Source: Mesoterricola silvestris (GTDB lineage: Bacteria; Acidobacteriota; Holophagae; Holophagales; Holophagaceae). From it: a stretch of DNA of 64,000 nt. A program made the translations under genes and the position numbers. A model generated the notes under the pieces. The model ran no database searches and had not been told where the DNA came from. It saw only the letters and a list, made by a program, of their open reading frames with translations. Shown here piece by piece: positions 16,913-56,792 of the stretch (within the stretch, counting starts at the first letter, position 1; the number at the start of each line of letters is the position of its first letter). The DNA lies in contig NZ_AP027080.1 in assembly GCF_030295405.1 (NCBI RefSeq), positions 1,116,001 through 1,180,000 of the forward strand, given 5' to 3'.

Positions 16913-17071
16913 GAGAAACTAGGGATTCAAGAAAACCCGGAATTGTGACGATATCCCTTTCAGCAGGGCGATTTCTCTCTGGTCAATTGCCGAGTTTTTG
17001 CAAGAATGGAGATTGAAACAGCGCACGCATCGGGTAGTCTTCGTTCAGCATTCCTCCGGGGGAGGTCCACC

Positions 17072-17710
17072 ATGAGCGGAACCATCGAGTCGAGAACGGC
17101 CAAGCGGATTCCCTTGGGCGCCCCCGTCAAGGTCCTGGTCAAGGGGAAGGTCATCCTCGCGGCCATCGCCGTGAACATCAGCATGGGCGGCATCCTCCTC
17201 AACGCGGCGGAGCCGCTCCCCGTGGGCAGCCAGTGCGAGGTCTCCATCGGCCTGCGGGGCGGATCCGGGGCCGACAGCTTCCAGACCCTGGGCCGGGTGG
17301 TGCGCAGCGGCGAGAACGGCACCGCCATCCAGTTCGCCAAGATGCTCGGCGACCAGACCCTGGAGGTCCTGGCCCAGCCGGCGTCCGAATCCTGGGGCTC
17401 CTCCCTGGTGCACGCCTACGTGAACTATTTCAGGGTGAGCCAGAGCCGCATCGGCTTCGACAGCGAGCGCGTCTTCGGCGTGACGGCCAGGACCTTCCGC
17501 ACCGTCTCCACCATCTCCTTCATCACCTGCATCCCCGCCGCGGTGCTGCCCGTCTGGGCGCTTCGCGCCTACATCCCCAACAACATCCCCGACTGGGGCA
17601 AGATCCTCGCCGCCTTCGCCTACGGCGCCATCTGGCTCCTGGTCCTGCAGCCGCTCGTGGACCTGACGATCTTCAGGACCCTCCGGTCGAAGGTGGAAAG
17701 CCGGAATTAA
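17072..17710 (+). CDS. PilZ-domain membrane protein
   Basis: A 212-residue protein. An N-terminal PilZ domain shows the c-di-GMP-binding motifs RxxxR (RTAKR, residues 8-12) and NxSxxG (NISMGG, residues 35-40) with the usual beta-barrel strands and 'RSGENGTAIQFA'. Two membrane helices follow (about 145-165 and 178-197) and a short basic tail ends the protein. ATG 17072 has a GGGGGAGG-type ribosome binding site just upstream. The frame is open 22 codons further up, but without a good site. It probably reports c-di-GMP to a membrane partner. It sits between housekeeping genes and the exopolysaccharide locus; a link to the latter is inference. Confidence 0.85.
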   Translation: MSGTIESRTAKRIPLGAPVKVLVKGKVILAAIAVNISMGGILLNAAEPLPVGSQCEVSIGLRGGSGADSFQTLGRVVRSGENGTAIQFAKMLGDQTLEVLAQPASESWGSSLVHAYVNYFRVSQSRIGFDSERVFGVTARTFRTVSTISFITCIPAAVLPVWALRAYIPNNIPDWGKILAAFAYGAIWLLVLQPLVDLTIFRTLRSKVESRN

Positions 17711-23459: not shown

Positions 23460-23713
23460 GGGCTCCTCCGCCCTCACGCCCGTTCTATCGGGTCAATGAC
23501 CGGAACCCATTAGTCGTGAGATCAAAGTAATTTTAGATTCATTGCGAAAAAGAGGGGGAAAAAAAGAAAAAGGGAATAAATCGCCCTTGCAGGGGCGAAA
23601 TTAAATGAATATGAAATTTCTTCGGCCCCTTCCGGGGATGAAAAGGAGGGCGGGATTCCGCCCCGGGGTTTCATCCACTACAATGGGCGGGCCTCACCGG
23701 AAAGGTGCAAACC
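23460..23713. promoter_or_regulatory. AT-rich divergent intergenic region
   Basis: It separates the Ig/beta-helix operon (minus) from the acyltransferase pair (plus). The 23520-23640 part is markedly AT-rich for this genome and carries purine runs and a small hairpin TCGCCC...GGGCGA (23580-23597) flanked by A/T. Promoters for both directions are likely here, but no convincing -35/-10 pair could be assigned. Confidence 0.4.
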
Positions 23714-31648: not shown

Positions 31649-31689
31649 GGGCCGGTGCCGCCCCCGGACCTCTCCAGGAACCCGCCGCC

Positions 31690-33813: not shown

Positions 33814-33937
33814 ACCGGCCCCGAGGAACTTCCCGGGCGGGTGCCGGAATCGTGCCTTAAAAATCCTACCCGTAACCAGCCGTGCATGAGATGATTCCTT
33901 CCTAACACCGCCGGAAACCGGATTGAAAGGGAGTTCC

Positions 33938-35212
33938 ATGCGTATCGCCGTAGTGGGTCTTGGATATGTCGGTCTGCCCCTGGCCCTGTCGCTGGCCAAG
34001 AAATTCCCCGGCACGCTGGGGTTCGATATCCACCAGGCCAAGGTGCAGGAGCTGCGGGACGGCATCGACCGCACCCGCGAAGTGGAGCCCCAGGAACTCA
34101 AGGGCACCACCCTCACCATGACCAGCGTCCTGGAGGATCTCCGCGGCGCGGACTTCTTCATCGTCGCCGTGCCCACGCCCGTGGACGACTGGAACCGCCC
34201 CGACCTCACCCCCGTCATCAAGGCCTCCGAATCCGTGGGCAAGGTGCTGGGCAAGGGCTCCATCGTCGTCTACGAATCCACCGTTTTCCCCGGCGTCACC
34301 GAGGAGATCTGCGGCCCCATCCTCGAGAAGGTCTCCGGCCTCAAATGCGGCGTGGACTTCAAGCTGGGCTATTCCCCCGAGCGCATCAACCCCGGCGACA
34401 AGGTCCACACCGTGGAGAAGATCGTGAAGGTCGTCTCGGGCCAGGACGCGGAAAGCGCCGAGACCATCGCGGGCGTGTACGGCGCCGTCATCACCGCCGG
34501 CGTGCACCGGGCCTCCTCCATCAAGGTGGCCGAGACCGCCAAGGTCATCGAGAACACCCAGCGGGATATCAATATCGCGCTCATGAACGAACTGGCCATC
34601 ATCTGCGAGAAGGTGGGCATCCGCACCAGCGAGGTGCTCACGGCCGCCCGCACCAAGTGGAATTTCCTGCCCTTCAGCCCCGGCCTGGTGGGCGGCCACT
34701 GCATCGGCGTGGATCCCTACTACCTCACCACCAAGGCGCAGGAGCTGGGCTACCACCCCGAAGTGATCCTGGCCGGCCGGCGCATCAACGACAGCATGGG
34801 CTCGTACGTGGCCCAGAAGCTGGTGAAGCTGCTCATCCAGCAGCAGCTCAAGGTCAAGAACGCCAAGGTGGGCATCCTGGGCCTGACCTTCAAGGAGAAC
34901 GTGCACGACATCCGCAACAGCAAGGTGCCGGACATCATCACCGAGCTGAAGGAGTTCGGCATCGCGCCCCTGGTGCACGATCCCATGGCCGACCACGCCG
35001 AGACCCTCCACGAGTACGGCCTGGACCTCCAGCCCCTGGAGGACTTCCAGGACCTGGACGCCCTGGTGCTGGCGGTCAACCACTCCGCCTTCCTGGAGGC
35101 GGGGGTGGAGTCCCTCCTCAAGCGCATGAAGCCCGCCTCGGTGTTCATCGATGTGAAATCCTGCTTCGACCCCGGCCGGTTCCCCGAACAGGTCGCCTAC
35201 TGGAGCCTTTGA
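33938..35212 (+). CDS. tviB: UDP-N-acetylglucosamine 6-dehydrogenase, TviB/WbpO type
   Basis: A 424-residue member of the UDP-glucose/GDP-mannose dehydrogenase family. Rossmann motif VGLGYVGLP at the N-terminus, '[12 protein letters not shown]', '[11 protein letters not shown]', catalytic Cys in [12 protein letters not shown] (near residue 254) and '[16 protein letters not shown]' are all present. Sequence style and the neighbouring epimerase point to the TviB/WbpO subgroup, which oxidises UDP-GlcNAc (or UDP-GalNAc) to the uronic acid; the substrate is inferred. ATG 33938 has GGGAG four bases upstream. The stop overlaps the next start by one base, so the two enzymes are coupled. Confidence 0.85.
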
Positions 35213-36243
35213 TGCCGAAGTACGCGGAGATCTCCCGGCAGCTCATGGACCACCCCCGCACCTGGCTGGTGACGGGCGTGGCGGGCTTCATCGGATCCAA
35301 TATTCTCGAACGGCTCCTGGCGCTGGATCAGGTGGTGGTGGGGCTGGACAACTTCTCCACCGGCAGGCCCGAGAACCTGGAGAACGTGCGGCAGACGGCC
35401 AAGCCCGGCGCCTGGAAGAAGTTCACCTTCCACGAGGGGGACACCCGGGACCTGGCCATGTGCCGGCGCGCCTGCGAAGGCGTGGAGCTCGTCCTGCACC
35501 AGGCGGCCCTGGGCTCCGTGCCCCGCTCCATCAAGGAACCCATCACCAGCCACGAATCCAACGTGAACGGCTTCCTGAACATGCTCGTGGCCGCCCGGGA
35601 CGCGGGGGTCTCGCGCATGGTCTACGCCTCCTCCAGTTCGGTGTACGGCGACGATCCCCAGCTGCCCAAGGTGGAGGAGCGGGTGGGCAACCCACTCTCC
35701 CCCTACGCCGTCACCAAGGCCATCAACGAGGCCTACGCCGCCGTCTTCGGCCGCTCCTACGGCTTCAAGGCCGTGGGCCTGCGCTACTTCAACGTCTTCG
35801 GCCCCCGGCAGGATCCCGACGGGCCCTACGCCGCCGTCATGCCCAAGTGGATCGACGCGCTGGTGAAGGGCCAGCCCTGCCAGATCCACGGGGACGGGGA
35901 GACCAGCCGGGACTTCTGCTTCGTGGCCAATGCCGTCCAGGCCAATATCCTGGCCGCCACCGCCCCGGCGGAAGGCCTGGAGGACGTCTTCAACGTCTCC
36001 TTCGGCGGCACCACCTCCCTGACCCAGCTGTACTGGATGATCGCGGAGCGGCTGGCCGCCATCCTGCCCGGGCTCAAGCCGGGGGACCCGGTGTACGCGC
36101 CCTTCCGGCCCGGGGACATCCGCCATTCCCAGGCGGACCTCACCCGCATCAAGACCCAGCTGGGATACGACCCCACCCATTCGGTGGCCCAGGGCCTGGA
36201 CGAGCTGGTGCCCTGGTTCGCCGCCGCCCATGCCCGTTCCTGA
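35212..36243 (+). CDS. tviC: NAD-dependent sugar-nucleotide 4-epimerase, TviC/WbpP type
   Basis: A 343-residue extended short-chain dehydrogenase. NAD-binding GVAGFIG (G22, G25, G28), '[12 protein letters not shown]', '[11 protein letters not shown]', the SSSSVYG segment, YxxxK in PYAVTKAIN and '[12 protein letters not shown]' are all family-typical for UDP-GlcNAc(A) 4-epimerases. Following a TviB-type dehydrogenase, it most likely yields a UDP-N-acetylgalactosaminuronate-type donor. The N-terminal extension of about 17 residues before the Rossmann strand is also seen in WbpP/TviC. It overlaps the next glycosyltransferase gene by one base. Confidence 0.87.
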
Positions 36244-37388
36244 TGCGCATCGGCGTCCTGGGAACCCAGGCCAGGGATCTGGTCAACTTCCGCGGTCATC
36301 TGCTTTCGGAACTGGCCAAGGCGGGGCACGAGGCCTTCGGCATCGCGCCGGGGGGCGATGAGGCCACCCGGGACGCGCTGGCGGCCCTGGGGGCCACGTA
36401 CGTGCCCATCCGCCTGGACCGCACCGGCCTCAACCCCTTCGGCGAGGCCCTGAGCTTCCTGCGGCTCTGGCGCACCCTGCGGGGCCTGCGCCTGGATCTG
36501 CTCCTGTGCTACGAACTGAAATCCGTCGCCTTCGGGACCCTCGCGGCCCGGCTGGCGGGGGTGCCCCGGCGCTACGCCATGATCACCGGGCGGGGCACGA
36601 CCCTGCAGGGGGCCACCTCCAGCACCCAGGAGAAGCTGGTGCGGGCCGTGGTCACGCGCCTCTACCGCATGGCGCTGCCCCGCACCCAGGGGGTCCTCTT
36701 CCAGAACCAGGATGATTGCGATTTCTTCGGGGAGCTGGGCATGCTCCCGGCCTCCGTGCCCCGGCGCATCATCAACGGCTCGGGCGTGGACCTGGACCAC
36801 TTCGCCCGGCAGCCCCTGCCGGAAGGGACCGCCACCTTCCTCTTCGTGGGCCGGCTCCTGAAGAACAAGGGCGTCTTCGAACTGGTGGAGGCCTGCCGGA
36901 TCCTGGCCCGGCGGGGGGTGCCCTTCCACGCCCGCATGCTGGGGCCCCTGGATACCAATCCCAACGGCATCACCGCCGGCCAGCTGGAAGCCTGGGTGGG
37001 GGAGGGGAGCGTGGCCTACCTGGGGGAGCTGGCCGATGTGCGGCCCGCCTTGGCCGCGGCCCATGTGATGGTGCTCCCCTCGTACGGCGAGGGCACGCCC
37101 CGGTCCGTGCTGGAGGCCCTGGCCGTGGGCCGCGCCGTGGTGACCACGGACGCCCCCGGGTGCAAGGAGGTGGTGGCCGAAGGGGTCAACGGCCACCGGG
37201 TGCCCGTGGGGGACGCCACGGCCCTGGCGGACGCCATGGAACACCTGGCCCGGGACCCGGAACTCATCGCGCGCTTCGCCCAGGAGGGGCGCCGGCTCGC
37301 CGAGCGGAAGTACGATGTGCGGCTGGTGACGGCCGATATCATCGATTTCATGAATTGCGGGAAAGGCAAGGCCCATGGAGCCCACTGA
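36243..37388 (+). CDS. Glycosyltransferase family 4 (capsular type)
   Basis: A 381-residue GT-B glycosyltransferase. The N-terminal domain begins [20 protein letters not shown]. The acceptor/donor core includes GRGTTLQGATSS, INGSGVDLDHF, FVGRLLKNKGVFEL, and the EGTPRSVLEALAVG motif with the donor-binding glutamates. It resembles WbpH/PglA-like enzymes that act on lipid-linked intermediates using UDP-HexNAc-type donors, but the sugar cannot be read. It starts inside the ATGA-like junction with the epimerase gene and overlaps the flippase gene by 14 bases. Confidence 0.88.
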   Translation: MRIGVLGTQARDLVNFRGHLLSELAKAGHEAFGIAPGGDEATRDALAALGATYVPIRLDRTGLNPFGEALSFLRLWRTLRGLRLDLLLCYELKSVAFGTLAARLAGVPRRYAMITGRGTTLQGATSSTQEKLVRAVVTRLYRMALPRTQGVLFQNQDDCDFFGELGMLPASVPRRIINGSGVDLDHFARQPLPEGTATFLFVGRLLKNKGVFELVEACRILARRGVPFHARMLGPLDTNPNGITAGQLEAWVGEGSVAYLGELADVRPALAAAHVMVLPSYGEGTPRSVLEALAVGRAVVTTDAPGCKEVVAEGVNGHRVPVGDATALADAMEHLARDPELIARFAQEGRRLAERKYDVRLVTADIIDFMNCGKGKAHGAH

Positions 37389-38775
37389 AACCGCAGCGGC
37401 GTCCGGACTGGTGGGCAGGGCCCGGGCCTCCTGGGAGCGGCTCACCACCGGCAGCGTGAACCGCCGGGTCTTCGGGGCGGCCCTGGTGGTGGGGATCCTC
37501 ACCCTGGGCATCAAGGTCTTCGCCCTGCTCAAGGAATCCTTCGTGGCCGCCCGGTATGGCACCGGCAACGACTACGACGCCTTCATCATCGCCATGATCG
37601 TTCCCGCCTCCCTGGCGGCCATCCTCTCCGGCTCCCTGGACGCGGCCCTGATCCCCACCTACATCGAGGTGCGCGAGACGGAAGACCACGAAGCGGCCCA
37701 CCGGCTCTACGCCACCATCCTCCTGTGGAACACCATCGTCCTGGTGGGCACCGTGGGCCTGCTGGCCCTGACGGTGGACCTGTGGCTCCCCCTCCTGGCC
37801 TCCCGCTTTGATCCGGCCAAGATGGCCCTGGCCCGCAAGCTGGTGTTCGCCTCCCTGCCCATCGTGGTGCTCACGGGCTTCTCCACGGTGTGGGGCGCCC
37901 TGCTCAACGCCGGGGAACGCTTCGCCGGGGCCGCGCTGGCGCCCGCCCTGCAATCCCTCGGCGTGATCCTCCTGCTGGCCCTCTGCTTCCAAAGCATGGG
38001 CATCTGGGCCCTCCTGGCGGGCTCCCTGGTGGGCATCGTGGGCGAGACGGGGGTGAAGGGCTACCTGCTGAAGAAGCGCGGCCACCCCCTCATGCCGCGC
38101 TGGCACGGGGTCACCGCCGCCTTCCGCAAGGTGCGGGGCCAGTACGCCACCGCCATCGCCGCCTCCTTCATCGTCAACGGCATGACCCTGGTGGACCAGG
38201 CCTTCGCCTCCACCCTGGGCCCCCGGAGCAATTCGGCGCTCAGCTACGGCAGCAAGCTGCAGGCCTTCGCCCTGTCCCTGGGGGTGACGGCCCTGTCCAC
38301 GGCCATCCTGCCCGCCCTGTCCAAGATGGTGGCCCTGCGGGACTGGACGGGCATCCGCCGGTTCCTGCGGGTGTACGGCGGGATGATCCTGGCCGTGACC
38401 GTGCCCGCCACCCTCATGCTCATCGTGCTTTCGAAATTCCTCGTGCGGATCATGTACCAGCACGGCTCCTTCACCGCCGCCGACACGGACCTGGTGGTGC
38501 AGATCCAGATCTTCCACCTGCTGCGCATCCCCTTCGCCACCTGCCACGTGCTGGTCACCCGGACGCTTACGGCCCTCAAGTCCGTGCACTTCCTGCTGAT
38601 CATGTCCTTCAGCAGCTTCGCCCTGAACGCCTTCCTGGACTGGCTCCTCATCCAGCGGTACGGGATCGCCGGCATCACCCTTTCCACGTCGCTCTGCAGC
38701 ATCGTGACCCTGGTGTGCCTGGGCTGGGCGCTGAACCATCTCTTGAAGAAGAAGGCCCTGGAGGCTGGCGCATGA
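37375..38775 (+). CDS. MurJ/MVF-type lipid-linked oligosaccharide flippase
   Basis: A 466-residue polytopic protein with about 13-14 helices in the MOP/MVF superfamily pattern. Features are an early helix with 'KVFALLKESFVAARYGTGNDYDAF' in pieces, 'GSLDAALIPTYIE', 'GVTALSTAILPALSKM' and 'MYQHGSFTAADTDLV'. These are typical of MurJ (lipid II flippase). Its place among glycosyltransferases suggests that it moves the polysaccharide precursor across the inner membrane as a Wzx substitute rather than lipid II. It overlaps the next gene by four bases (ATGA). Confidence 0.83.
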   Translation: MEPTETAAASGLVGRARASWERLTTGSVNRRVFGAALVVGILTLGIKVFALLKESFVAARYGTGNDYDAFIIAMIVPASLAAILSGSLDAALIPTYIEVRETEDHEAAHRLYATILLWNTIVLVGTVGLLALTVDLWLPLLASRFDPAKMALARKLVFASLPIVVLTGFSTVWGALLNAGERFAGAALAPALQSLGVILLLALCFQSMGIWALLAGSLVGIVGETGVKGYLLKKRGHPLMPRWHGVTAAFRKVRGQYATAIAASFIVNGMTLVDQAFASTLGPRSNSALSYGSKLQAFALSLGVTALSTAILPALSKMVALRDWTGIRRFLRVYGGMILAVTVPATLMLIVLSKFLVRIMYQHGSFTAADTDLVVQIQIFHLLRIPFATCHVLVTRTLTALKSVHFLLIMSFSSFALNAFLDWLLIQRYGIAGITLSTSLCSIVTLVCLGWALNHLLKKKALEAGA

Positions 38776-39674
38776 AATTCCTTCCCTGGATCCGGCCCGT
38801 CCCCCTCACCCGGGAGCCCGCGCCCGTGGGCCAGGTGCGCACGGCGCGCCGGGGCGGGCGGATCCGGGTGGTGGAAACCTGGTTCAACGACGATCCCCCG
38901 AGCCTGGACGGCGTCGATGTGTGGATCGCCCACCAGCGCCCGGAGCGCCTGACCCCCTGGGGCTGGCACTACCGCTACACCCTGATGGTGGACCTGGCCG
39001 CCTCCGCCGAGGAGATCCTGGCCCGCATGAACAAGACCGCCCGCCAGGAGATCCGCAAGTCCATCAAGGACGGGGAATTCACCTGCACCTTCATCCCTTC
39101 GCCCACCGAGGCGCAGATGGAGGCCTTCGCCGACGCCTACGACGCCCACCCCATCCACTCCGACGCGCCCCGGCTGGAGCGGGAGCGGCTGCGGGAACTG
39201 TTTTCCGCGGGCAATCTGCAGATCTCGGAATGCCGGGACGCCTCGGGCACGATCCTGGTGTGGCACGGCGTCCTGGGCCACAAGCGGGCGGGAATCGCCC
39301 AGCCGGTGTACCAGATCTCCAACTACCACCAGTCCGCGGACCAGGCCAGCGCCAACACCACGGGCCGGGCGAACCGGGTCCTGTACTACCAGGAATTCGT
39401 GTACTACAAGGAGCAGGGTTACGCCCACTATGACCTGAACGGCTGGTACACCGGTTCCGAGGACGCCAAGCGGCTGAAGATCAACAAGTTCAAGGAGGCC
39501 TTCCGGGGCCGCCTCTCCCACGGCTTCGATTGCGAGGAGGCCCTGACGCTGCGCGGGTGGGCCTACGTGACCTTCCGGACCCTGAAGCGGTGGTTCTTCA
39601 TGAAGGGGCGCGCGGACGAACTGCGGCGCCTGCGGAAGAAGCCGGTGTTGAACTTGCCGGAATACCTGCAGTAG
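38772..39674 (+). CDS. FemAB/GNAT-like acyltransferase in polysaccharide locus
   Basis: A 300-residue protein with the acetyltransferase-like (BioF2/FemAB) pattern: 'MNKTARQEIRKSIKDG' near the middle, then 'VWHGVLGHKRAGIAQPVYQ', 'GRANRVLYYQEFVYYKEQGY' and 'YDLNGWYTG...KRLKINKFKEAF'. The last of these is the usual closing motif of peptidoglycan-bridge/FemX-like and EPS-locus GNAT proteins. In exopolysaccharide clusters such proteins are thought to attach an acyl or aminoacyl group to an amino sugar; the donor is unknown. It is the last gene of the 30.4-39.7 kb unit. Confidence 0.75.
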   Translation: MKFLPWIRPVPLTREPAPVGQVRTARRGGRIRVVETWFNDDPPSLDGVDVWIAHQRPERLTPWGWHYRYTLMVDLAASAEEILARMNKTARQEIRKSIKDGEFTCTFIPSPTEAQMEAFADAYDAHPIHSDAPRLERERLRELFSAGNLQISECRDASGTILVWHGVLGHKRAGIAQPVYQISNYHQSADQASANTTGRANRVLYYQEFVYYKEQGYAHYDLNGWYTGSEDAKRLKINKFKEAFRGRLSHGFDCEEALTLRGWAYVTFRTLKRWFFMKGRADELRRLRKKPVLNLPEYLQ

Positions 39675-40072: not shown

Positions 40073-41350
40073 TCAGGAGGCCTCCCATTCCTCCAAGGCC
40101 GGGCTGACGGGCAGGAGGAACATGAGCGCGAAGGCCACCTGGCCCTCGAAGCTGAAGAGGAGGCTGTGGCTGAAGAACAGGTACGTGAGGTTCACCAGGC
40201 ACAGCGAGACCAGCGCCCACCGCACCGGGGCGGAGCCCGGGTAGGTGAGGGTCCGCTTGGCATAGAAGGCGATGACCGCGAGGAAGGCGAAGAAGCCCAC
40301 CGGCCCGATGTCGATCCAGACGCCCAGGTAGGTGTTGTGGGTGCCCAGCATGATCCGCCCCAGGCCCACCACCTTCATGGTGTCGTCGTCCACCCGGGTG
40401 CCGGACATGGCCTGCATGCCGTAGCCGTACCAGGGTTCCTGGTCCAGCTGGGAGGACCATTCCTCGAAGAGGTCCAGCCGGGTCACGCCCCCCTTGGCGG
40501 CGGTGTTCTTCTCCTCGATGTCCAGCATGCGCGACAGGGCCCCGCGGTTGGAGGCGCTGCGCACCTCGTGGCGCATGGCCTGGCTCAGGGAGAAGGCGAT
40601 CACCAGGGACACCGCGGCCACGATGCCGCCGAGCCACCACCGCAGATCCTTGCGCTTGGCGATGAAGAGGTAGAGCACCACCAGGAGGGCGAGGAAGAGC
40701 CCCGCCCGCCGGCTGGCGGTGAGGTAGATGATGGGCACGCTGCACAGGCGGCCCATCCAGCCCAGCAGGGGGGTGGCGAACACCGAAAGGATCAGGACGA
40801 GCAGGGCGATGTACCCGCCCACGTTGGGGTTCCCCCAGAGCCCTCCGTAGCGCCCGGCCCCCCCCTCCATGTTCAGGACGCCGGAGCGCTGGGTGACCGC
40901 GTAGAGGATGGACGCCACCTTCGAGCTCAGGGGGATGAGGAAGAGCAGCACCAGGTTGACCACCACCGCGAACTGGGCCGCGTTGGCGAAGCTGCGCAGG
41001 GCCTTGGCGCTTGAGGTGAGGTAGGCCACGGCGCCGGCCAGCAGGAGCGTGATGGTCCAGGCCTTGATGGCGAAGGGGTAGTCCCGGCTGGGCGCGACGA
41101 TGAGGCCCCAGATGAAGTAGAAGGTGAACCAGGCCATGTAGGGCACCACGGGGGAGAGCAGCCGCCCGTACCTCAGCTTCGTGGCGCTGGCCACCAGGAG
41201 CGCGAGAACCAGGCCCCACACCATCCAGGTGAAGCCCCGGAAGAAGAAGGAGAGGAAGGGCAGGGCGCCCGCGAGCACCAGGCCCATGAGGAACGCCATG
41301 GCGCTTGCGCCGAAGGCCAGCCATGGGGATTCGTCCCGGGTCCATTCCAT
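40073..41350 (-). CDS. O-antigen ligase / polymerase family protein (Wzy_C)
   Basis: A 425-residue protein with ten or more membrane helices. It has the Wzy_C-type periplasmic loop ahead of the motif 'LGTHNTYLGVWIDIGPVG', which carries the conserved His of this family, and an earlier 'GLWGNPNVGGYIALLVL'. Such proteins either polymerise repeat units (Wzy) or ligate glycans. With no separate ligase or polymerase in the window, a Wzy role is the likelier reading. ATG 41350 is preferred over TTG 41353 and overlaps the stop of the upstream sugar transferase by one base, with an AGGAGAAGG site in front. Confidence 0.85.
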   Translation of the reverse strand: MEWTRDESPWLAFGASAMAFLMGLVLAGALPFLSFFFRGFTWMVWGLVLALLVASATKLRYGRLLSPVVPYMAWFTFYFIWGLIVAPSRDYPFAIKAWTITLLLAGAVAYLTSSAKALRSFANAAQFAVVVNLVLLFLIPLSSKVASILYAVTQRSGVLNMEGGAGRYGGLWGNPNVGGYIALLVLILSVFATPLLGWMGRLCSVPIIYLTASRRAGLFLALLVVLYLFIAKRKDLRWWLGGIVAAVSLVIAFSLSQAMRHEVRSASNRGALSRMLDIEEKNTAAKGGVTRLDLFEEWSSQLDQEPWYGYGMQAMSGTRVDDDTMKVVGLGRIMLGTHNTYLGVWIDIGPVGFFAFLAVIAFYAKRTLTYPGSAPVRWALVSLCLVNLTYLFFSHSLLFSFEGQVAFALMFLLPVSPALEEWEAS

Positions 41351-42240
41351 CAAGCCTTCTCCTCAGGGTAGGGCAGGGAGGGCAGGGGTTCGGGGAACCG
41401 CACCGCCGTGCCCTGGTCGTCGCTGCGCACGATGGTACCCTCCAGGGTCACGGGTCCGCCACCGGGTCCGGGGGCGGGGAGGGTCACCTGGATCTTGGAT
41501 CCCACCGGCTGCGTGCCCTCGGCCTCCAGGAGCAGCCCGCCCGGCCCGAGGTTCACGAGGCGCGCGGACGGCCCGCCTTCCACGGCCACGGGCACGGCGG
41601 GCCGGGGCCCCCGGTCGAAGGCCCTGCGGTCCCCGGGTTTGCGGGATTCGATGGGTGGGCGGACCAGCCCCAGGGTGGCGAGGATGATCCGGACGTTGCC
41701 CCACAGGGTGGCCTTGGCGGCGTACTCGAGGTTGATGCGGATCTTGTTGGGAAGGATGTTCTCCGCGTAGAAGCGGCCCGGTTCCTCGCCGCCGCGGAAG
41801 ATCTGGTTCTCGTGGCGGTACACGATGGACGCCGCGTCGGTGATGCCGGGGCGGATATCCAGCACCCGCCGCTGGGCCGGCGTGTAGAGGGCCACGAACT
41901 TGGGCACCTCGGGCCGGGGGCCCACCAGGCTCATCTGCCCCAGGAGCACGTTCACCAGCTGGGGCAGCTCATCGATCTTGAAGTCCCGCAGCCACTTGCC
42001 CAAAGGGGTGATGCGGTCGTCCACGGCCACCGTGAGCAGGTCGCCCTGGCGGTCGGCGCCCACCCGCATGGTCCTGAACTTGAGGATCCGGAAGGGCCGG
42101 CCCCCCTGGCCGATGCGCTCCTGGCGGTAGAACACCGGCCCCCCGTCGCTGATCCGGATGGCGAGGCCCACCAGGATCAGCAGGGGGGAGAGCAGGGCGA
42201 GGCCCAGGATCGACCAGAAGAGGTCGAAGAGCCGGAACAT
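41350..42240 (-). CDS. Initiating sugar transferase (PglC/Bac_transf type) fused to PilZ domain
   Basis: A 296-residue protein. Residues 1-215 are a short-form phosphoglycosyl transferase: an N-terminal re-entrant helix (MFRLFDLFWSILGLALLSP), 'GGPVFYRQERIGQGG', 'LKFRTMR', 'IDELPQLVNVL' and 'SLVGPRPE'. It transfers a sugar phosphate to undecaprenyl phosphate and so starts each repeat unit. From about residue 218 a PilZ-like domain follows, with RxxxR (RAFDR) and NxGxxG (NLGPGG, a variant of the usual D/NxSxxG) plus 'VRSDDQGTAVRFPE'. This suggests direct c-di-GMP gating of polymer initiation. ATG 42240 lies two bases from the aminotransferase stop. Confidence 0.86.
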   Translation of the reverse strand: MFRLFDLFWSILGLALLSPLLILVGLAIRISDGGPVFYRQERIGQGGRPFRILKFRTMRVGADRQGDLLTVAVDDRITPLGKWLRDFKIDELPQLVNVLLGQMSLVGPRPEVPKFVALYTPAQRRVLDIRPGITDAASIVYRHENQIFRGGEEPGRFYAENILPNKIRINLEYAAKATLWGNVRIILATLGLVRPPIESRKPGDRRAFDRGPRPAVPVAVEGGPSARLVNLGPGGLLLEAEGTQPVGSKIQVTLPAPGPGGGPVTLEGTIVRSDDQGTAVRFPEPLPSLPYPEEKA

Positions 42241-42242
42241 CC

Positions 42243-43400
42243 CTAGGCCCGGTGGGCGGCGACGAGTTCCTCCATCGCCGTGCACACGTCGTCCACGTCC
42301 GCGTCCGTCAGGCCCGGGTGGAGGGGCAGGCTCAGCATGCGGGAGAAGGCGTCCGCGGACACGGGGCAATCCTCGGGGCGGTAGCCGTACTTGTCACGGT
42401 AGAAGGGCTGCATGTGCACGGGGAGGTAGTGCACGGAGGTGCCGATCTGCCGCGCCTTGAGCGCCTCGATGAACTCGTTGCGGCCGAGGGTGAGCCGCTC
42501 CGGGCGCAGGCGCAGGACATAGAGGTGGAGGCTGGATTCCACGTCCGGGTCCTCCACGGGGATCTGCAGCTCGGGCAGGAGGGCGAAGCGGGCGTTGTAG
42601 CGGTCCACCACCTGGCGCCGCCGGGCCTGGAAGGCCTCGAGGCGCACCAGCTGGTGGAGGCCGATGGCGGCCTGGAGATCGGTCATGTTGTACTTGAAGC
42701 CGGGGAGCAGCACCTCGTAGTACCAGGACCCCGACCGGTCGAAGCGCTTCCAGGCCTCCTTGTCCATGCCGTGGTGGCCGATGATGCGGGCCTTGGCCAG
42801 GAGCTCCGGGTCGCCGGTGAGGGCCCCGCCCTCGGCGGTGGTGAGGTTCTTGGTGGCGTAGAAACTGAAGGAGGCCAGGTTGCCCCGGGAGCCCACGAGC
42901 CGGCCCTTGTAGCGGGCGGGGAGCGCGTGGGCGGCGTCCTCCAGGATGTGGAGGCCGTGCTTGCCGGCCAGGTCGAAGAGCGGATCCAGCTGGGCGGGGT
43001 GCCCGGCGTAATGCACGGGCATGATGGCCTTGGTGCGGCTGGTGAGGGCCCGGGCGGTGGCCTGGGGATCCAGGGTCAGGGTGGCGGGATCCACGTCCAC
43101 CAGGACGGGCCGGGCGCCCACGTGCTCCACCACATTGGCCGTGGCGCAGAAGGTCAGGCTGGGGACGATCACCTCGTCCCCGGGCCCCACCCCCAGGACG
43201 GCCAGGCCCACGTGGAGCCCCGCCGTGCAGGAATTGAAGGCCGCCAGATCCGGCGCGCCCAGGTAGGCCTTCAGGTTGCCTTCGAAGAGCCGGGTCTTGG
43301 GCCCCGTGGTGATCCAGTCCGACATGAGGGTATCGAGGACCTCCGAGCGCTCTCCGTCGCCGATGGAGGGGGGGCTGAATTGAAGGAATTTTTCTCGCAT
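42243..43400 (-). CDS. DegT/DnrJ/EryC1/StrS-family sugar aminotransferase
   Basis: A 385-residue PLP enzyme. Hallmarks are 'FNSCTAGLHVGLAVLGV', 'DEVIVPSLTFCATAN', 'ILEDAAHALPARYKG' and the PLP lysine in SFYATKNLTTAEGG near residue 182. The style is that of PglE/PseC-like enzymes, which aminate a 4-keto-6-deoxy UDP-HexNAc. The PglF-type dehydratase at 54777-56792 could supply that substrate, and the sugar transferase directly downstream could use the product. It is the first gene of a three-gene minus-strand unit with coupled junctions, preceded by an AAAGG site. Confidence 0.88.
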   Translation of the reverse strand: MREKFLQFSPPSIGDGERSEVLDTLMSDWITTGPKTRLFEGNLKAYLGAPDLAAFNSCTAGLHVGLAVLGVGPGDEVIVPSLTFCATANVVEHVGARPVLVDVDPATLTLDPQATARALTSRTKAIMPVHYAGHPAQLDPLFDLAGKHGLHILEDAAHALPARYKGRLVGSRGNLASFSFYATKNLTTAEGGALTGDPELLAKARIIGHHGMDKEAWKRFDRSGSWYYEVLLPGFKYNMTDLQAAIGLHQLVRLEAFQARRRQVVDRYNARFALLPELQIPVEDPDVESSLHLYVLRLRPERLTLGRNEFIEALKARQIGTSVHYLPVHMQPFYRDKYGYRPEDCPVSADAFSRMLSLPLHPGLTDADVDDVCTAMEELVAAHRA

Positions 43401-47466: not shown

Positions 47467-47500
47467 CCACAACCCGCCGGCTCCCGCCGGCGGGTTGTGG
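47467..47500 (+). promoter_or_regulatory. Perfect 15-bp hairpin directly before a ribosome binding site
   Basis: CCACAACCCGCCGGC (47467-47481) pairs perfectly with 47486-47500 across a TCCC loop. The GGAG ribosome binding site starts four bases later (47504) and the gene's ATG is at 47513. No T-tract follows, so it is unlikely to be a terminator. It could stabilise the mRNA 5' end or control ribosome access. Confidence 0.7.
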
Positions 47501-47512
47501 GTTGGAGATCGC

Positions 47513-50824: not shown

Positions 50825-53062
50825 TCAGCTTTCGCCGCGGCGGTACTTGTAGTCGAACTCGTAGCGGTAGTAGCCGTACAGTCCGCCCACTTTCACCAGT
50901 TCGATATCGTTGAAGACGCAACCCTTCAGCTTGCCTTCCAGGTGCTTCAGGCGGCTCTGGCAGGTGCGGATCTCCTCCAGGGGGTGGGCGCCGTACTTGG
51001 CGACCAGGAGGATGGATTCGGCCTTGGCGCCCAGGACCGTGGCGTCGCTCACCGGCAGGATGGGGGGGGCGTCGATGATGACGAAATCGAAGGCTTCGGA
51101 GACTTGGGCGGCGAATTCGGCGTACTTGGCGGACATGAGGAGGACCAGGGGATCGGGGGGGAGGATGCCGGTGCTCAGCAGGCTGAGGCCGGGCACCATG
51201 GTCTCCTTGATCTGGGATTTCCAGTCGGCCCTGCCGGCCAGGATCTCGGCCAGGCCGCCCGCCCGGCCCTTGGCGCCGAAGGTGCGGTGCAGCTTGCCCC
51301 TGCGCAGGTCGCCGTCCACCAGCAGCACCCGGGCGCCGCCCTGGGCGAAGACCGTGGCGAGGTTGGTGCTCACGAAGGACTTGCCCACCTCGGGGGAGGG
51401 GCCGGTGACGAGGATGATCCGGTTCTCGGCCTTCTCCATGGTGAAGTGCAGGAGGGTCCGGAGGCTCCTGAGGCTCTCCGTGGCGATGTCCTCGGGGTCC
51501 CCCACGGCCAGGAGGTGGATGCCGGGGCTCTTCTTGGAAATCTGCTTGTCGAAGTTCTTCTGGCCCTCGCTGTGGGGGATGGTGACCAGGATGGGGAGGC
51601 CCAGCTTGGCCTCGATGATGCGGTGATCCTGGATGCCCCGGCGCATGAGGCGGCGCGCCACGGTCAATCCGACGCCCACCACCAGCCCGATGAACGTGAA
51701 GAGCACCATCAGGACCTTCTTCTTGGGGGCGACCGCATCGTAGGCCGGGATGGCGTAGTCCACCACGTGGGCGTTGCCCACGGCCCCCGCCAGGGTGTTC
51801 TGGAGCTGCTGGATGCTGGTGAGCAGGGACGTGTACATCTCGGACTTCACCTGGGCGTCCCGGGTGAGGCGCACGATCTCCTGCTGGGTCCTGGGCAGGC
51901 CCGTGACCCTGGAGTTCACCTTGTTGGCCTCCGCCTGGAGGTGGGCGATCTGCTGGTCGGTGGTGGTCACCAGGTCGGAATGCTCGGTGTAGGTGCGCAG
52001 CAGTTCCTGCCGGCGCTGCTTGAGGGTGGAGATCTGGGCTTCCAGGTTGGCGCCCTGCTGGAGGAAGAGGTTGCCTTCCTGGGCGATGTCCACGGCGGCA
52101 TTCTGGCGGCGGTACTCGTTGAGCCGGCTTTCCGCTTCGGAAAGCTGCTGCTGCAGCGCGGGGCGCTGGCTCTGGAGGAGGGCCAGGGCCTTGGAGGAAT
52201 CTCCGGCCTTGCGCTCGATGGATTGGCGCACGTACTGATTGAGGATCTCGTTCAGGATGAGCGCCCCCTGCTCCGGGTCCGGCGCCTGCAGGGAAAGGCC
52301 CAGGATATTGGAGGACTGGTTCATGTTCTTGCCCCGCTCCTCCACCGAAAGGGCCAGGCGGAGGTTGGTGATGCAATCCACGATGGGGGTCATGGACAGG
52401 GTGAACACCTGGCCGGTCTTCCCCCGGAGGTTGCGCACCTTCAGCCGCATGGGCATGCCGTTCCAGGAGGCGGAAACCCGTTCGCCGGGCCTGCCCTGCA
52501 CCAGCTCGCTGCCATCGGGGCCCGAAAGGCGGTAGACCCCGCCCCCCAGGGCCGTGACCTTGAAGACGATGCCCCGGAGCTTGTCGGGCACCTCGAAGGC
52601 TTCGATGTCCAGGCGGGCCGGGGTGCGGGAATTCCGGTTCAGCATGCGCCCGATCACCGGCATGAGCACCGGGGCGCATTCCACGTCCAGGCCCAGGTTC
52701 GAAACGACCCGGCCCAGGACGAGGTTGCTCTTGATGATCTCGATCTCCCCCTGGGCCACCGTGAGCTGGGTGTAGACCCCCTCCATCTTGGTGAACTCCT
52801 GGTTCTGGGAGCCGTAGCTCTTGGGAACCTCGGTCTGGAGCAGGCCTTCCACCTGGTACACGGGGGTCGCCGCGAACACGTAGATGAGCCCCACGGTCAC
52901 GAAGAGCAGGAGGGAGCCCAGGATCAGCCCGCGCCCCTCCCACAGGTTCGCGAAGGCCTCGCTGAGGTTGAACTCGGCGCCCCGGCTGGAGCTGTCCGGG
53001 CCCGGGCCATGCCGCTGGGGCGCCGCGGGGTGTCTGGGATCGGGAGTCATTTCATTGTTCAT
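50825..53062 (-). CDS. wzc: Wzc-type tyrosine autokinase / polysaccharide co-polymerase
   Basis: A 745-residue inner-membrane protein. A Wzz-like N-terminal domain is bounded by a first helix (about 48-66) and a second (about 450-470), with a long periplasmic coiled-coil region between them. A cytoplasmic BY-kinase follows: Walker A GPSPEVGKS near residue 556, Walker A' LLVDGDLRRG near 581, Walker B VIIDAPPIL. The tail is tyrosine-rich (GGLYGYYRYEFDYKY), the expected autophosphorylation cluster. It controls polymer length and export together with Wza and Wzb. ATG 53062 overlaps the phosphatase stop by four bases and has an AAAGG site. A 4-gene export operon ends here. Confidence 0.94.
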   Translation of the reverse strand: MNNEMTPDPRHPAAPQRHGPGPDSSSRGAEFNLSEAFANLWEGRGLILGSLLLFVTVGLIYVFAATPVYQVEGLLQTEVPKSYGSQNQEFTKMEGVYTQLTVAQGEIEIIKSNLVLGRVVSNLGLDVECAPVLMPVIGRMLNRNSRTPARLDIEAFEVPDKLRGIVFKVTALGGGVYRLSGPDGSELVQGRPGERVSASWNGMPMRLKVRNLRGKTGQVFTLSMTPIVDCITNLRLALSVEERGKNMNQSSNILGLSLQAPDPEQGALILNEILNQYVRQSIERKAGDSSKALALLQSQRPALQQQLSEAESRLNEYRRQNAAVDIAQEGNLFLQQGANLEAQISTLKQRRQELLRTYTEHSDLVTTTDQQIAHLQAEANKVNSRVTGLPRTQQEIVRLTRDAQVKSEMYTSLLTSIQQLQNTLAGAVGNAHVVDYAIPAYDAVAPKKKVLMVLFTFIGLVVGVGLTVARRLMRRGIQDHRIIEAKLGLPILVTIPHSEGQKNFDKQISKKSPGIHLLAVGDPEDIATESLRSLRTLLHFTMEKAENRIILVTGPSPEVGKSFVSTNLATVFAQGGARVLLVDGDLRRGKLHRTFGAKGRAGGLAEILAGRADWKSQIKETMVPGLSLLSTGILPPDPLVLLMSAKYAEFAAQVSEAFDFVIIDAPPILPVSDATVLGAKAESILLVAKYGAHPLEEIRTCQSRLKHLEGKLKGCVFNDIELVKVGGLYGYYRYEFDYKYRRGES

Positions 53063-53532
53063 AGGGACCTTTGCTCTGCATTCACACGGGGCAGCCAGTC
53101 CCCGACGGACAGCTGGATCTGATCGAGGGCGCGGCGGAAGGCTTCCGGGCCCCGGCGGTAGGGGTCCGGGATCTCCCGGGATTCGGGGGGCTGCCAGTGG
53201 CCCAGGAGGAAGACCCGGCCCCGGACCCGGGGAGCCTTCTTCTCGCAATCCCGCTTCTGCCGCTCGTCCATGACGAGGATGAGATCGGCCGCCATGGCCA
53301 GGGCCGGCGTGAACTGCCGGCCGCGGTGGGCGGAGAGATCCAGGCCCCGCTCCGCCATGAGGCGCTGGGCGTCCCCGTCGGCCGGGAGGCCTTCCAGGGC
53401 CGAAAGGCCGGCGGAACCCACCTCCACGCCCGGCCCCGCCCCGGACCGGAGCAGGGCTTCGGCCATGGGGCTCCGGCAGTGATTGCCTTCACAGACGACG
53501 AGAACGGATGTGACCCTAAGCGGCGAAATCAG
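53059..53532 (-). CDS. wzb: Low-molecular-weight protein tyrosine phosphatase (Wzb type), unusual start
   Basis: A cytoplasmic phosphatase expected to dephosphorylate Wzc. The active-site loop CEGNHCRS (C-x5-R) and the catalytic Asp in IPDPYRR are intact. The first ATG (53466) lies after the active-site loop, so a protein starting there would be dead. Upstream, the frame stays open with no ATG, GTG or TTG in the right place. CTG at 53532 has AGAGG six bases before it and gives a 157-residue protein of normal family length, and is taken here as the start; ATT 53529 is another option. The stop overlaps the wzc start by four bases. Confidence 0.8.
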   Translation of the reverse strand: MISPLRVTSVLVVCEGNHCRSPMAEALLRSGAGPGVEVGSAGLSALEGLPADGDAQRLMAERGLDLSAHRGRQFTPALAMAADLILVMDERQKRDCEKKAPRVRGRVFLLGHWQPPESREIPDPYRRGPEAFRRALDQIQLSVGDWLPRVNAEQRSL

Positions 53533-53557: not shown

Positions 53558-54721
53558 TTAGAGGCGCTTCTTGAAGTAGTAGACCTGGGCCCCGGTGGCG
53601 GTGCCGGCCGTGATGGCGTTGATGGTGGGCAGCAGCAGGTTCATGACGCGGCTGAACCGCACCAGGGTGCCGGCGTCCACGTAGACGATATCCCGGGGGT
53701 TCAGGGCGAACTTGTCCGCCAGGATCATGGAGGCGGGGTTCCGGGCGTCCAGGTGGAAGACGTCCACCTTGTTGGAGGCGCCGGCGGAGCGGATCACGTA
53801 GATGGAGGTGGCGTCGGCGCTGGTGACCTGGACCCCGCCCACTTCGGAAATGGCCTTGGCGAGGGTGAGCTTGCCGTGCACCAGGGGGATGTTCCCGGGG
53901 CGCATGAGTTCGCCCATGAGGTACACGGGCTCCTCGCTGGCGTTGGGGATCTGCAGGGAGTCGCCGTCCTGGAGCAGGATCTGGCCGGAGGCCGTGCCCA
54001 TGGCCAGGATGGACTGGAAATTCAGCGTCCAGGATTTCGAACCCCGGGTCAGGACCATGCGGCTGTCATCGGCCGCGGGATTCAGGCCTCCGGCCCGGTT
54101 GATGGCCTCGGCCAGGGTGAAGGGGACGTCGGTGACGGGGTACACGGCGGGGTTGCGCACTTCGCCGCCCACGTAGACCTTCTGGGAGCGGTACACCAGC
54201 ACCTTCACGTCCACCTGGGGATTGCGGAGGGACTTGGCCAGCTGGGTGGTGAGGCTGTCGCGCACCTGGCTGACGGTCATGCCCGCGACCTTGAGCTTGC
54301 CCACGTAGGGGAAGAAGATGTTCCCCTCCTCGTCCACCAGGTTGCCGTACGAGGTGTCCGTGCGGTTGGGGCCCATGGGAAGGGAGATCTCGGGGTGGTC
54401 CCACACGGTGACCAGGAGCACGTCCTGGGAGCCCAGGCGGTAGGGCTGCGCCCGGTCGGCGACCAGGGCGGAGATGTCCACCGGGGTCGGGGGGCGGGTG
54501 GCCTGGCGATTCACCAGGTCCGGCGAGAGCGGGTGCAGCGTGACGGAAAGGCCGCCCACATCCTCGGGCCGCTCGTGGCTGTTGGGCCGGGAGGACAATT
54601 TCATGCCCGGCGCCTTGCAGCCGACGGCGAGGGTCAGGGCCAGGAGGCCGAGGGTCAGCCCGGACCGGGCGCGGGTGGCGAGGGTGGAAGGAACTTCTGC
54701 GTGCCCCAGGGTTTGCAACAC
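53558..54721 (-). CDS. wza: Wza-type outer-membrane polysaccharide export lipoprotein
   Basis: A 387-residue protein. The lipoprotein signal ends at LALTLAVGC, followed by a Poly_export domain (YRLGSQDVLLVTVWDHPE, DEEGNIFFPYVGKLKVAGMT) and SLBB-type repeats (VYVGGEVRNPAVYPVTD, VYLMGELMRPGNIPLVHG, GDSLQIPNASEEPVY). The C-terminus has a hydrophobic stretch that could form the outer-membrane helix barrel. GTG 54721 is chosen as the start because GGAG lies six bases upstream; the frame extends further but without a site. It forms the exit channel for the polymer driven by Wzc. Confidence 0.92.
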   Translation of the reverse strand: MLQTLGHAEVPSTLATRARSGLTLGLLALTLAVGCKAPGMKLSSRPNSHERPEDVGGLSVTLHPLSPDLVNRQATRPPTPVDISALVADRAQPYRLGSQDVLLVTVWDHPEISLPMGPNRTDTSYGNLVDEEGNIFFPYVGKLKVAGMTVSQVRDSLTTQLAKSLRNPQVDVKVLVYRSQKVYVGGEVRNPAVYPVTDVPFTLAEAINRAGGLNPAADDSRMVLTRGSKSWTLNFQSILAMGTASGQILLQDGDSLQIPNASEEPVYLMGELMRPGNIPLVHGKLTLAKAISEVGGVQVTSADATSIYVIRSAGASNKVDVFHLDARNPASMILADKFALNPRDIVYVDAGTLVRFSRVMNLLLPTINAITAGTATGAQVYYFKKRL

Positions 54722-54776
54722 GATGCGCTCCGAAGAAAAAAACGACCAGGTGATGGGATGTGGTTCCAGTATGGCA

Positions 54777-56792
54777 TCAGATGTAGGCGCGCAGGCCAAG
54801 GCTTTCGGGCGGCCTGAAATCCACCGGGGCGGTGAGGGGCTCGACCTTGGGGTTGTCCGGGTCGGCCTCGGCGTCCAGGTACCGTCCCAGGCCATGGGGA
54901 GAGGGCTGGAACGTGGGGAGCAGCTTCATGAAGCACCGGAGCATCCTCGGGTAGCCCTCCTCGCCCCGGCCGTCCTGGATCTCCCGGAGGATGGCGAGGC
55001 CCTCCTCGAGGGTGGCGGGGTCCACGGGGTACTCCTTGGCTTCGAAAACCTTGGGGTGAACGGTCGTGCGGGAGACCCGGCCTTCGCTGAAGAGCTCCTC
55101 CACCAGCTTCTCGCCGGGGCGGACGCCCGTGAAGCGGATGTCCACGTCCACCCCCGGGGAGAACCCGGAAAGGCGCACCATCTCCTCCGCCAGGTTGACG
55201 ATGTGCACCGGCTCGCCCATGTCCAGGGCGAAGACCTTGCCCGAATCGCCCAGGATGCCCGCCTGGAGCACCAGCTGGGCCGCCTCGGGGATGGTCATGA
55301 AGTAGCGCACCATGTCCGGGTGGGTGATGGTCACGGGCCCGCCGCCCCGGATCTGGTCCCGGAACAGGGGGATGACGCTGCCCCGGCTGCCCAGGACGTT
55401 GCCGAAGCGCACGCTGACGAACTTGGAGGCCGGCACCTCCACGGCGGCCCGGGCCACCAGGAGCTCGCCCACGGCCTTGGAGGCCCCCAGCATGTTCACC
55501 GGATTGACCGCCTTGTCCGTGGAGACGTTCACGAAGATCCGCGTGCCGCAGGCCTTGGCGGCCTCGATGACGTTGCGGGTGCCGAAGATGTTGTTCTCGA
55601 TGGCCTCCTCGGGGTTCGCTTCCAGGAAGGGCACGTGCTTGTGGGCCGCCGCGTGCAGGACGACCTTGGGCCGCCACTTCTGGAACACCTGGTGGAGGCG
55701 CGCCGGGTTGCGGATATCGCAGAGGGCGATCTCCACCTCCTGGTTGGGGTAGAGGTTCACCAGCTGACGCTGGACCTCCCAGAGGCTGTTCTCGCCCCGG
55801 CCCAGCAGCACCAGCCGCCCCGGGTGGATCTCGGCCACCCGCCGGGCCAGTTCGCTGCCGATGGAACCGCCCGCCCCGGTGATGAGCACCGCCTCGTTGT
55901 CCAGGGCCTTGCGGATGGCTTCGGTGTCCAGGGTGATGGGATCCCGGCGCAGCAGGTCCTCGATGGCGATGTCCCGCACCTCGGGCTTCCAGGGCCGGTC
56001 CCCCACCAGGTCCATGATCCCGGGGACGGTCTTGAGCTTGATGCCCTCGGCCATGATGACCTTGGACAGCTCCCGGAGGCGGGCCCCCCGCACGCCGGCC
56101 ATGCCCAGGATGACCTGGGTGGCGCTCTGTTCGCGGATGATCAGGGGCAGGAGGGCGGTGGGACCCAGGACGGGGATGCCCAGGATGCGCAGCCCCTGCT
56201 TCTCCAGGTCGTCGTCGATGAAGCCCAGGACGTTGCAGCGCAGGCGCGGGTGCTCCCGCAGCTCCTGGCAGAGCAGGACGCCCGCGCGCCCCGCGCCGAT
56301 GATGAGCGTTCGCTCGGCAAGGGTCCCGCCGGCGACGATGGCCGGCCGGGCATGGCGCCGCTGGTGGATGGCGAGGGCGGCCATGCGCACCACCACCCAC
56401 AGCAGGCCCGTGATGAGGCTGGCGCCCAGCACCACGTCGGGGCGCACGTTGTCCGTCCAGCCGCCGCGGATGAGGCACAGGGTCATGGTGGTGCCCGCCA
56501 GGGTGGCGGTGCCCAGCACGAGCCAGCGGGCATCGTGGATGTCCATGGCCCGGTAGTGCTGGGTGTGGAAGCGCAGGCCCAGGTTGATGAACATGGCGAT
56601 GAGCACGAAGGCGACCATGCCGCGCCCGACGTTCAGGCCCTGCAGGAGGACGCTGGACGCGGCCACGAAACCCACGCAGGCGACCAGCGTGTCCAGGGCG
56701 ATCTTCACGATCTTCCGGACCAGGGGACCCTTCAGGAACGGGTTGCGGGCTTGTCCTTCATCGGCCTGGGGAGGGTCGTTCGATTCAACCAT
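54777..56792 (-). CDS. Membrane-bound nucleotide-sugar 4,6-dehydratase (PglF/CapD/WbpM type)
   Basis: A 671-residue protein with four N-terminal membrane helices, a first Rossmann domain (IIGAGRAGVLLCQEL) and a C-terminal SDR catalytic domain. The latter shows TGAGGSIGSELAR, 'HAAAHKHVPFLEANPEEA', the STDKAVNP segment and MLGASK, in which Met replaces the usual SDR Tyr as in WbpM/PglF. It probably converts UDP-GlcNAc to the 4-keto-6-deoxy sugar, the first step toward bacillosamine- or QuiNAc-type sugars. The DegT aminotransferase in this window fits as the next step. GGAG lies nine bases before ATG 56792. It is the first gene of the export operon with wza, wzb and wzc. Confidence 0.92.
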   Translation of the reverse strand: MVESNDPPQADEGQARNPFLKGPLVRKIVKIALDTLVACVGFVAASSVLLQGLNVGRGMVAFVLIAMFINLGLRFHTQHYRAMDIHDARWLVLGTATLAGTTMTLCLIRGGWTDNVRPDVVLGASLITGLLWVVVRMAALAIHQRRHARPAIVAGGTLAERTLIIGAGRAGVLLCQELREHPRLRCNVLGFIDDDLEKQGLRILGIPVLGPTALLPLIIREQSATQVILGMAGVRGARLRELSKVIMAEGIKLKTVPGIMDLVGDRPWKPEVRDIAIEDLLRRDPITLDTEAIRKALDNEAVLITGAGGSIGSELARRVAEIHPGRLVLLGRGENSLWEVQRQLVNLYPNQEVEIALCDIRNPARLHQVFQKWRPKVVLHAAAHKHVPFLEANPEEAIENNIFGTRNVIEAAKACGTRIFVNVSTDKAVNPVNMLGASKAVGELLVARAAVEVPASKFVSVRFGNVLGSRGSVIPLFRDQIRGGGPVTITHPDMVRYFMTIPEAAQLVLQAGILGDSGKVFALDMGEPVHIVNLAEEMVRLSGFSPGVDVDIRFTGVRPGEKLVEELFSEGRVSRTTVHPKVFEAKEYPVDPATLEEGLAILREIQDGRGEEGYPRMLRCFMKLLPTFQPSPHGLGRYLDAEADPDNPKVEPLTAPVDFRPPESLGLRAYI

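Follow-up and report, generated by a model that had tools for sequence, protein, structure and literature searches.

Control by c-di-GMP through PilZ domains is established for synthase pathways of polysaccharide production. BcsA and Alg44 are examples of such control, and in BcsA the binding of c-di-GMP to the C-terminal PilZ domain opens a gate at the active site (PMC8461298). In VCA0042, c-di-GMP swings the PilZ domain against the neighbouring domain, with the RxxxR motif among the contacts (PMC3131395). HfsK of Caulobacter, an N-acetyltransferase thought to modify polysaccharide, is a c-di-GMP effector in holdfast biogenesis that is inactivated by the second messenger and requires a short C-terminal extension to bind it (PMC5362036). 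Post-translational control of the first step of Wzx/Wzy pathways is poorly understood (PMC12802240, PMC10942596), and the nearest precedent in which a signal acts on priming comes from Myxococcus, where EpsW activates the phosphoglycosyl transferase (PGT) EpsZ by direct contact (PMC12802240). Since the supply of undecaprenyl phosphate and UDP-sugars is limited and other pathways draw on it too, this first step is the logical point of control. Our literature search, which was limited, found no description of a PilZ domain on a PGT, although such absence is not proof of novelty.

The window analysed here is a stretch of 64,000 nucleotides from Mesoterricola silvestris (NZ_AP027080.1, positions 1,116,001-1,180,000 of the forward strand), whose relevant features are listed in Table 1. 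The original prediction read one of its ORFs as an initiating PGT that carries a C-terminal PilZ-like domain, with RxxxR and a variant NxGxxG motif, and that serves a Wzx/Wzy-type pathway. This reading was borne out: both domains exceed their Pfam cut-offs within the single ORF, whose boundaries lie where they had been placed; both motifs are present; and genes for a flippase, Wzy, Wzc and Wza are found around the fusion gene. Translation would run from an ATG at 42238-42240 to a TGA at 41350-41352, where the stop codon and the start of wzy share one base (TGATG). Given this overlap and the tight spacing to the DegT gene on the other side, the three genes look translationally coupled. Because of the overlap with wzy, and because the identical fused frame recurs in three other genomes, a sequencing error, a frameshift or an annotation artefact could be ruled out as the origin of the fused frame.

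Table 1. Features of the Mesoterricola silvestris window that bear on the PGT-PilZ fusion (positions are those of the window)
Feature	Position	Strand	Basis or remark
Stand-alone PilZ protein, two C-terminal membrane helices (by reading)	17006..17710	+	Pfam PilZ E 3.8e-9; canonical RTAKR / NISMGG
Rest of locus core: UDP-sugar dehydrogenase, epimerase, GT4, flippase, ORF 38772-39674	33923..39674	+	Pfam, except for ORF 38772-39674, which has no match
MurJ-like lipid-linked repeat-unit flippase (Wzx role)	37375..38775	+	MurJ E 1.4e-54, MatE
Wzy-type polymerase	40073..41350	-	Wzy_C E 1.6e-14; ATG overlaps PGT-PilZ stop
PGT-PilZ fusion gene	41350..42240	-	296 aa plus stop, single uninterrupted ORF
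PilZ domain, residues 204-285	41386..41631	-	Pfam PilZ; six-strand model
Second motif N230-L-G-P-G-G235, NxGxxG variant of D/NxSxxG	41536..41553	-	Sequence comparison
RxxxR motif R206-A-F-D-R210 at hinge	41611..41625	-	Invariant in four fusions; in all related PilZ domains compared
Small monotopic PGT (PglC-type) catalytic domain, residues 1-196	41653..42240	-	Bac_transf and PglC alignment
Asp90-Glu91, counterpart of PglC Asp-Glu dyad	41968..41973	-	PglC alignment; invariant in fused and unfused homologues
Ser18-Pro19, N-terminal hydrophobic segment	42184..42189	-	PglC alignment; invariant in four fusions
DegT/DnrJ/EryC1 aminotransferase	42243..43400	-	Pfam E 1e-123; stop 2 bases before PGT-PilZ start
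Wzz/Wzc co-polymerase	50825..53248	-	Wzz, WZC_N, GNVR
Wza outer-membrane export protein	53558..54895 (start provisional)	-	Poly_export, SLBB
Membrane-bound NDP-sugar dehydratase/epimerase, CapD/PglF type	54777..56792	-	Polysacc_synt_2 E 3e-109

The catalytic domain matches Bac_transf (PF02397) over residues 3-191 with 190.9 bits against a cut-off of 27 (E 1.8e-56), and it aligns with the solved PglC structures 8e37/8g1n at E 3.3e-24. The alignment includes an Asp-Glu pair, the catalytic dyad in PglC, and a Ser-Pro pair, which in PglC breaks the reentrant helix. The four-helix bundle and the DUF of large PGTs are absent, as the domain begins at residue 3 and Pfam finds Bac_transf and PilZ only; we class the PGT as small because it has no N-terminal four-helix bundle. 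Judged by these alignments, the N-terminal domain is a small PglC-type PGT, predicted to transfer a sugar-1-phosphate to undecaprenyl phosphate.

A short linker joins this domain to the PilZ domain, and the RxxxR motif sits approximately 10 residues past the end of the PGT domain. The PilZ match (PF07238) reaches 29.0 bits in the whole protein (E 1.4e-6) and 32.4 bits when the tail alone is searched (E 1.2e-7), against a cut-off of 22.5. A profile built from ten related PilZ domains retrieved eight matches from the PDB up to E 5, with a top value of E 0.025, and all were PilZ-type proteins, a result that is weak but specific for PilZ. A structural model of the domain (pLDDT 65) has six strands, and Foldseek matches it best to the BcsA PilZ domain (probability 1.00, E 0.044) and to PA0012 with c-di-GMP, whereas its VIA-align Z values of at most 8.0 overlap with those of unrelated barrels. 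Fold support is thus moderate; the family assignment rests on sequence. A full-length AlphaFold model (pLDDT 40) was set aside.

The search for the same fusion across genomes that had been proposed with the original prediction was run, and three further genomes of the same Acidobacteriota family were found to carry it. The fusion is therefore present in four of the 77 genomes of the family, which belong to two genera: M. silvestris, G005 (UBA692, with a sequence identical to that of L041), G004 and G229. The fusions are 67-90% identical in the PGT part and 36-75% identical in the PilZ part. Orthologues lacking the PilZ motifs would have spoken against the original prediction, and none was seen: R206, R210, N230 and G235 do not vary among the four fusions. 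The second motif reads NLGPGG in M. silvestris and in G005, whereas G004 and G229 carry the canonical NxSxxG forms NISRGG and NISLGG. Close PGT relatives in the family that lack the fusion stop at approximately 200 amino acids, and 17 PGT homologues in the family have no PilZ domain. In the PGT tree, the four fused enzymes form one clade with support of 98/96, and this therefore points to one fusion event. The PilZ domain is short, and 22 of the 31 branches of its tree are open, so that the single origin is taken from the PGT tree.

The claim that such fusions are uncommon held within the Acidobacteriota sampled. Outside the family, no further fusion was present among the strongest matches listed for 396 evenly sampled Acidobacteriota genomes (matched via the PilZ part) or among the listed matches of E 1e-55 or better in 399 genomes of another class, where the genome samples partly overlap and a PilZ domain very unlike the query could escape detection. 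Among 1003 plasmid records that matched the PGT, none covers 80% of the query, and viral contigs yielded no more than part of a PGT. A seed-based scan of contigs from 84,980 species returned one close relative, UBA692, which is the same sequence as in G005. Independent fusions elsewhere were considered as well, and were not seen among the matches listed for the Acidobacteriota samples or the plasmids.

The two parts of the fusion have diverged at different rates. In the closest pair, which is unsaturated, dN/dS is approximately 0.35 for the PilZ part versus 0.18 for the PGT part, and the PilZ part is, by this comparison, under purifying selection; distant pairs are near saturation for this measure. 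Non-synonymous change in the PilZ part has been approximately two to three times faster than in the PGT part. Between distant members, PilZ identity is 36-41% versus 67-71% for the PGT, and 22 of the 83 PilZ columns are invariant across the fusions.

The nearest relatives of the fused domain are stand-alone PilZ proteins (PilZ-TM). These share a conserved YFxVS...LLGVSxRTFRT stretch, and their sequences read as having two membrane helices. One of them is encoded in the window approximately 24 kb from the fusion gene, and we consider it a candidate for a c-di-GMP effector that works in trans. In seven genomes, a PilZ-TM gene lies within 35 kb of a PGT gene on the same contig, and in others it is on a separate contig. 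M. silvestris, G004 and G005 hold both the stand-alone and the fused form, and none of the stand-alone type was found in G229 at E 1e-4. Seven of 15 PilZ-TM relatives that have an intact RxxxR likewise carry Gly in place of Ser in the second motif. The PilZ tree groups the fused domains with the PilZ-TM proteins, with weak support, and the fused domain was probably copied from such a membrane-anchored protein encoded in an exopolysaccharide (EPS) locus like this one. The likeliest history is that a PilZ domain of the locus was duplicated onto the PGT. Throughout the family, the PilZ-TM type recurs inside or close to EPS loci, and Pfam names only its PilZ domain. Adjoining the stand-alone gene in the window is a gene (16036-16887, plus strand) for a P-loop protein that by reading resembles RapZ/YvcJ, and this pair is retained in G004.

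The surrounding Wzx/Wzy EPS locus is complete, with PGT, flippase, Wzy, Wzc and Wza genes together in the window. Most genes of the 33923-39674 segment are conserved alongside the fusion in the three other genomes, and DegT adjoins the PGT in related loci holding the same PGT type. The ORF at 38772-39674 has no Pfam match; by eye it is FemAB/GNAT-like, and the c-di-GMP effector HfsK comes from a related enzyme class. A 722-amino-acid GT4 glycosyltransferase fused to a polysaccharide-deacetylase domain (31645-33813, plus strand) is also conserved in related loci. Three very large proteins (19548-23477, minus strand; 25125-30287 and 47495-50119, plus strand) have homologues in related EPS loci and are possibly surface adhesins or polymer-modifying enzymes; the sequence of the last reads as repeat-rich with a beta-helix-like end. 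The genome encodes 19 GGDEF proteins and at least nine PilZ genes, including the two in the window. An Rfam search of the window gave no match at gathering score, and therefore no c-di-GMP riboswitch is present there at that score.

With these features in mind, we think it reasonably probable that this protein primes the Wzx/Wzy EPS pathway and is gated by c-di-GMP. At the cytoplasmic face of the membrane, the N-terminal domain would use a UDP-sugar as donor and pass its sugar-1-phosphate to undecaprenyl phosphate, and the nearby DegT and CapD/PglF-type genes suggest that the first sugar is a 4-amino-4,6-dideoxy sugar such as diNAcBac. Probably as a dimer, c-di-GMP would be bound at the hinge between the domains by R206, R210 and the 230-235 loop, and its binding would either clamp the PilZ domain onto the PGT or release it from there. 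A clamp is conceivable because the spacing between RxxxR and the PGT resembles VCA0042/BcsA-type geometry. Such movement could make the active site more or less accessible, or shift the assembly state. High c-di-GMP would most likely increase priming and low c-di-GMP would spare undecaprenyl phosphate, where the effect may have either sign because activation is the default for EPS, yet HfsK is inactivated by c-di-GMP (PMC5362036). We infer binding and gating because RxxxR, N230 and G235 are invariant although the distant PilZ parts have diverged so far, and because the 19 GGDEF proteins, the PilZ-TM genes near PGT genes in seven genomes and the BcsA/Alg44 and EpsW precedents point the same way. 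The Pfam matches, the alignment with PglC, the single clade of four fusions, the PilZ-type matches in the PDB and Foldseek searches and the purifying selection on the PilZ part also favour this reading. Counted against this reading are the fast change of the PilZ part and the 17 PGT homologues of the family that manage without PilZ. The Ser-to-Gly replacement in M. silvestris and its closest orthologue may also weaken c-di-GMP binding.

Alternatively, the PilZ domain might bind c-di-GMP as a recruitment or scaffold module, drawing the enzyme to the Wzy/Wzc assembly or to a source of c-di-GMP with no allosteric change in catalysis. The overlap of the fusion gene with wzy and the membrane-anchored look of related stand-alone PilZ proteins in the same kind of locus are consistent with this proposal, which we nevertheless regard as unlikely given that RxxxR lies at a hinge right behind the catalytic domain, the spot expected for a conformational switch. 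A slightly more remote prospect is that the M. silvestris domain has lost or is losing c-di-GMP binding and now acts as a structural or protein-protein module. Some PilZ domains are known to lack intact motifs (PMC3131395), and both the NxGxxG variant shared with the nearest orthologue and the lower identity of the PilZ parts in distant pairs would agree with such a loss; however, both Arg residues, the Asn and the last Gly are retained, the same Ser-to-Gly replacement accompanies an intact RxxxR in stand-alone relatives, and purifying selection acts on the PilZ part. Confinement to four genomes would suit a neutral fusion or an annotation artefact with no regulatory meaning, but we consider this highly improbable, as the same frame persists in four genomes whose PGT parts have diverged to 67%, the wzy start overlaps the stop and the motifs are kept.

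If the fusion is indeed a c-di-GMP-gated priming enzyme, its sensor-type domain would let c-di-GMP switch the whole polymer pathway at the first step. As a small system made up of one protein and a soluble ligand, it lends itself to tests of whether c-di-GMP acts directly on priming, and it draws attention to a stand-alone PilZ partner in relatives of M. silvestris. More tentatively, and with more doubt than conviction, we propose that c-di-GMP directly and allosterically gates the PGT through the fused PilZ domain and that in relatives a stand-alone, membrane-anchored PilZ protein encoded in such an EPS locus acts likewise in trans; if this is true, c-di-GMP control of Wzx/Wzy priming would be a family-wide strategy.

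In its architecture, the M. silvestris protein combines features of several described systems. It shares the catalytic core, Asp-Glu dyad and Ser-Pro membrane helix of PglC (PDB 8e37, 8g1n), which consists of the catalytic core alone, whereas here a PilZ domain is added behind the core. As in YcgR/VCA0042 and BcsA, the PilZ domain is carried on a short hinge bearing RxxxR, and as in BcsA/Alg44 it belongs to a polysaccharide-making membrane protein. BcsA and Alg44 serve processive synthase pathways, whereas the fusion is a PGT that initiates a Wzx/Wzy pathway, and with a Bac_transf rather than a GT2 catalytic domain it falls outside the BcsA/Alg44-type synthase class. HfsK is likewise a c-di-GMP effector enzyme in the biogenesis of an exopolysaccharide adhesin, but does not act at the priming step (PMC5362036). 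EpsZ-EpsW shares signal-dependent control of an initiating PGT, although there a separate response regulator acts on a large monoPGT with no c-di-GMP domain (PMC12802240). Finally, the Bi-PGT class also has an extra domain fused to a monoPGT core (PMC10942596), but that domain is a pathway enzyme, whereas the one in M. silvestris is of the second-messenger sensor type.
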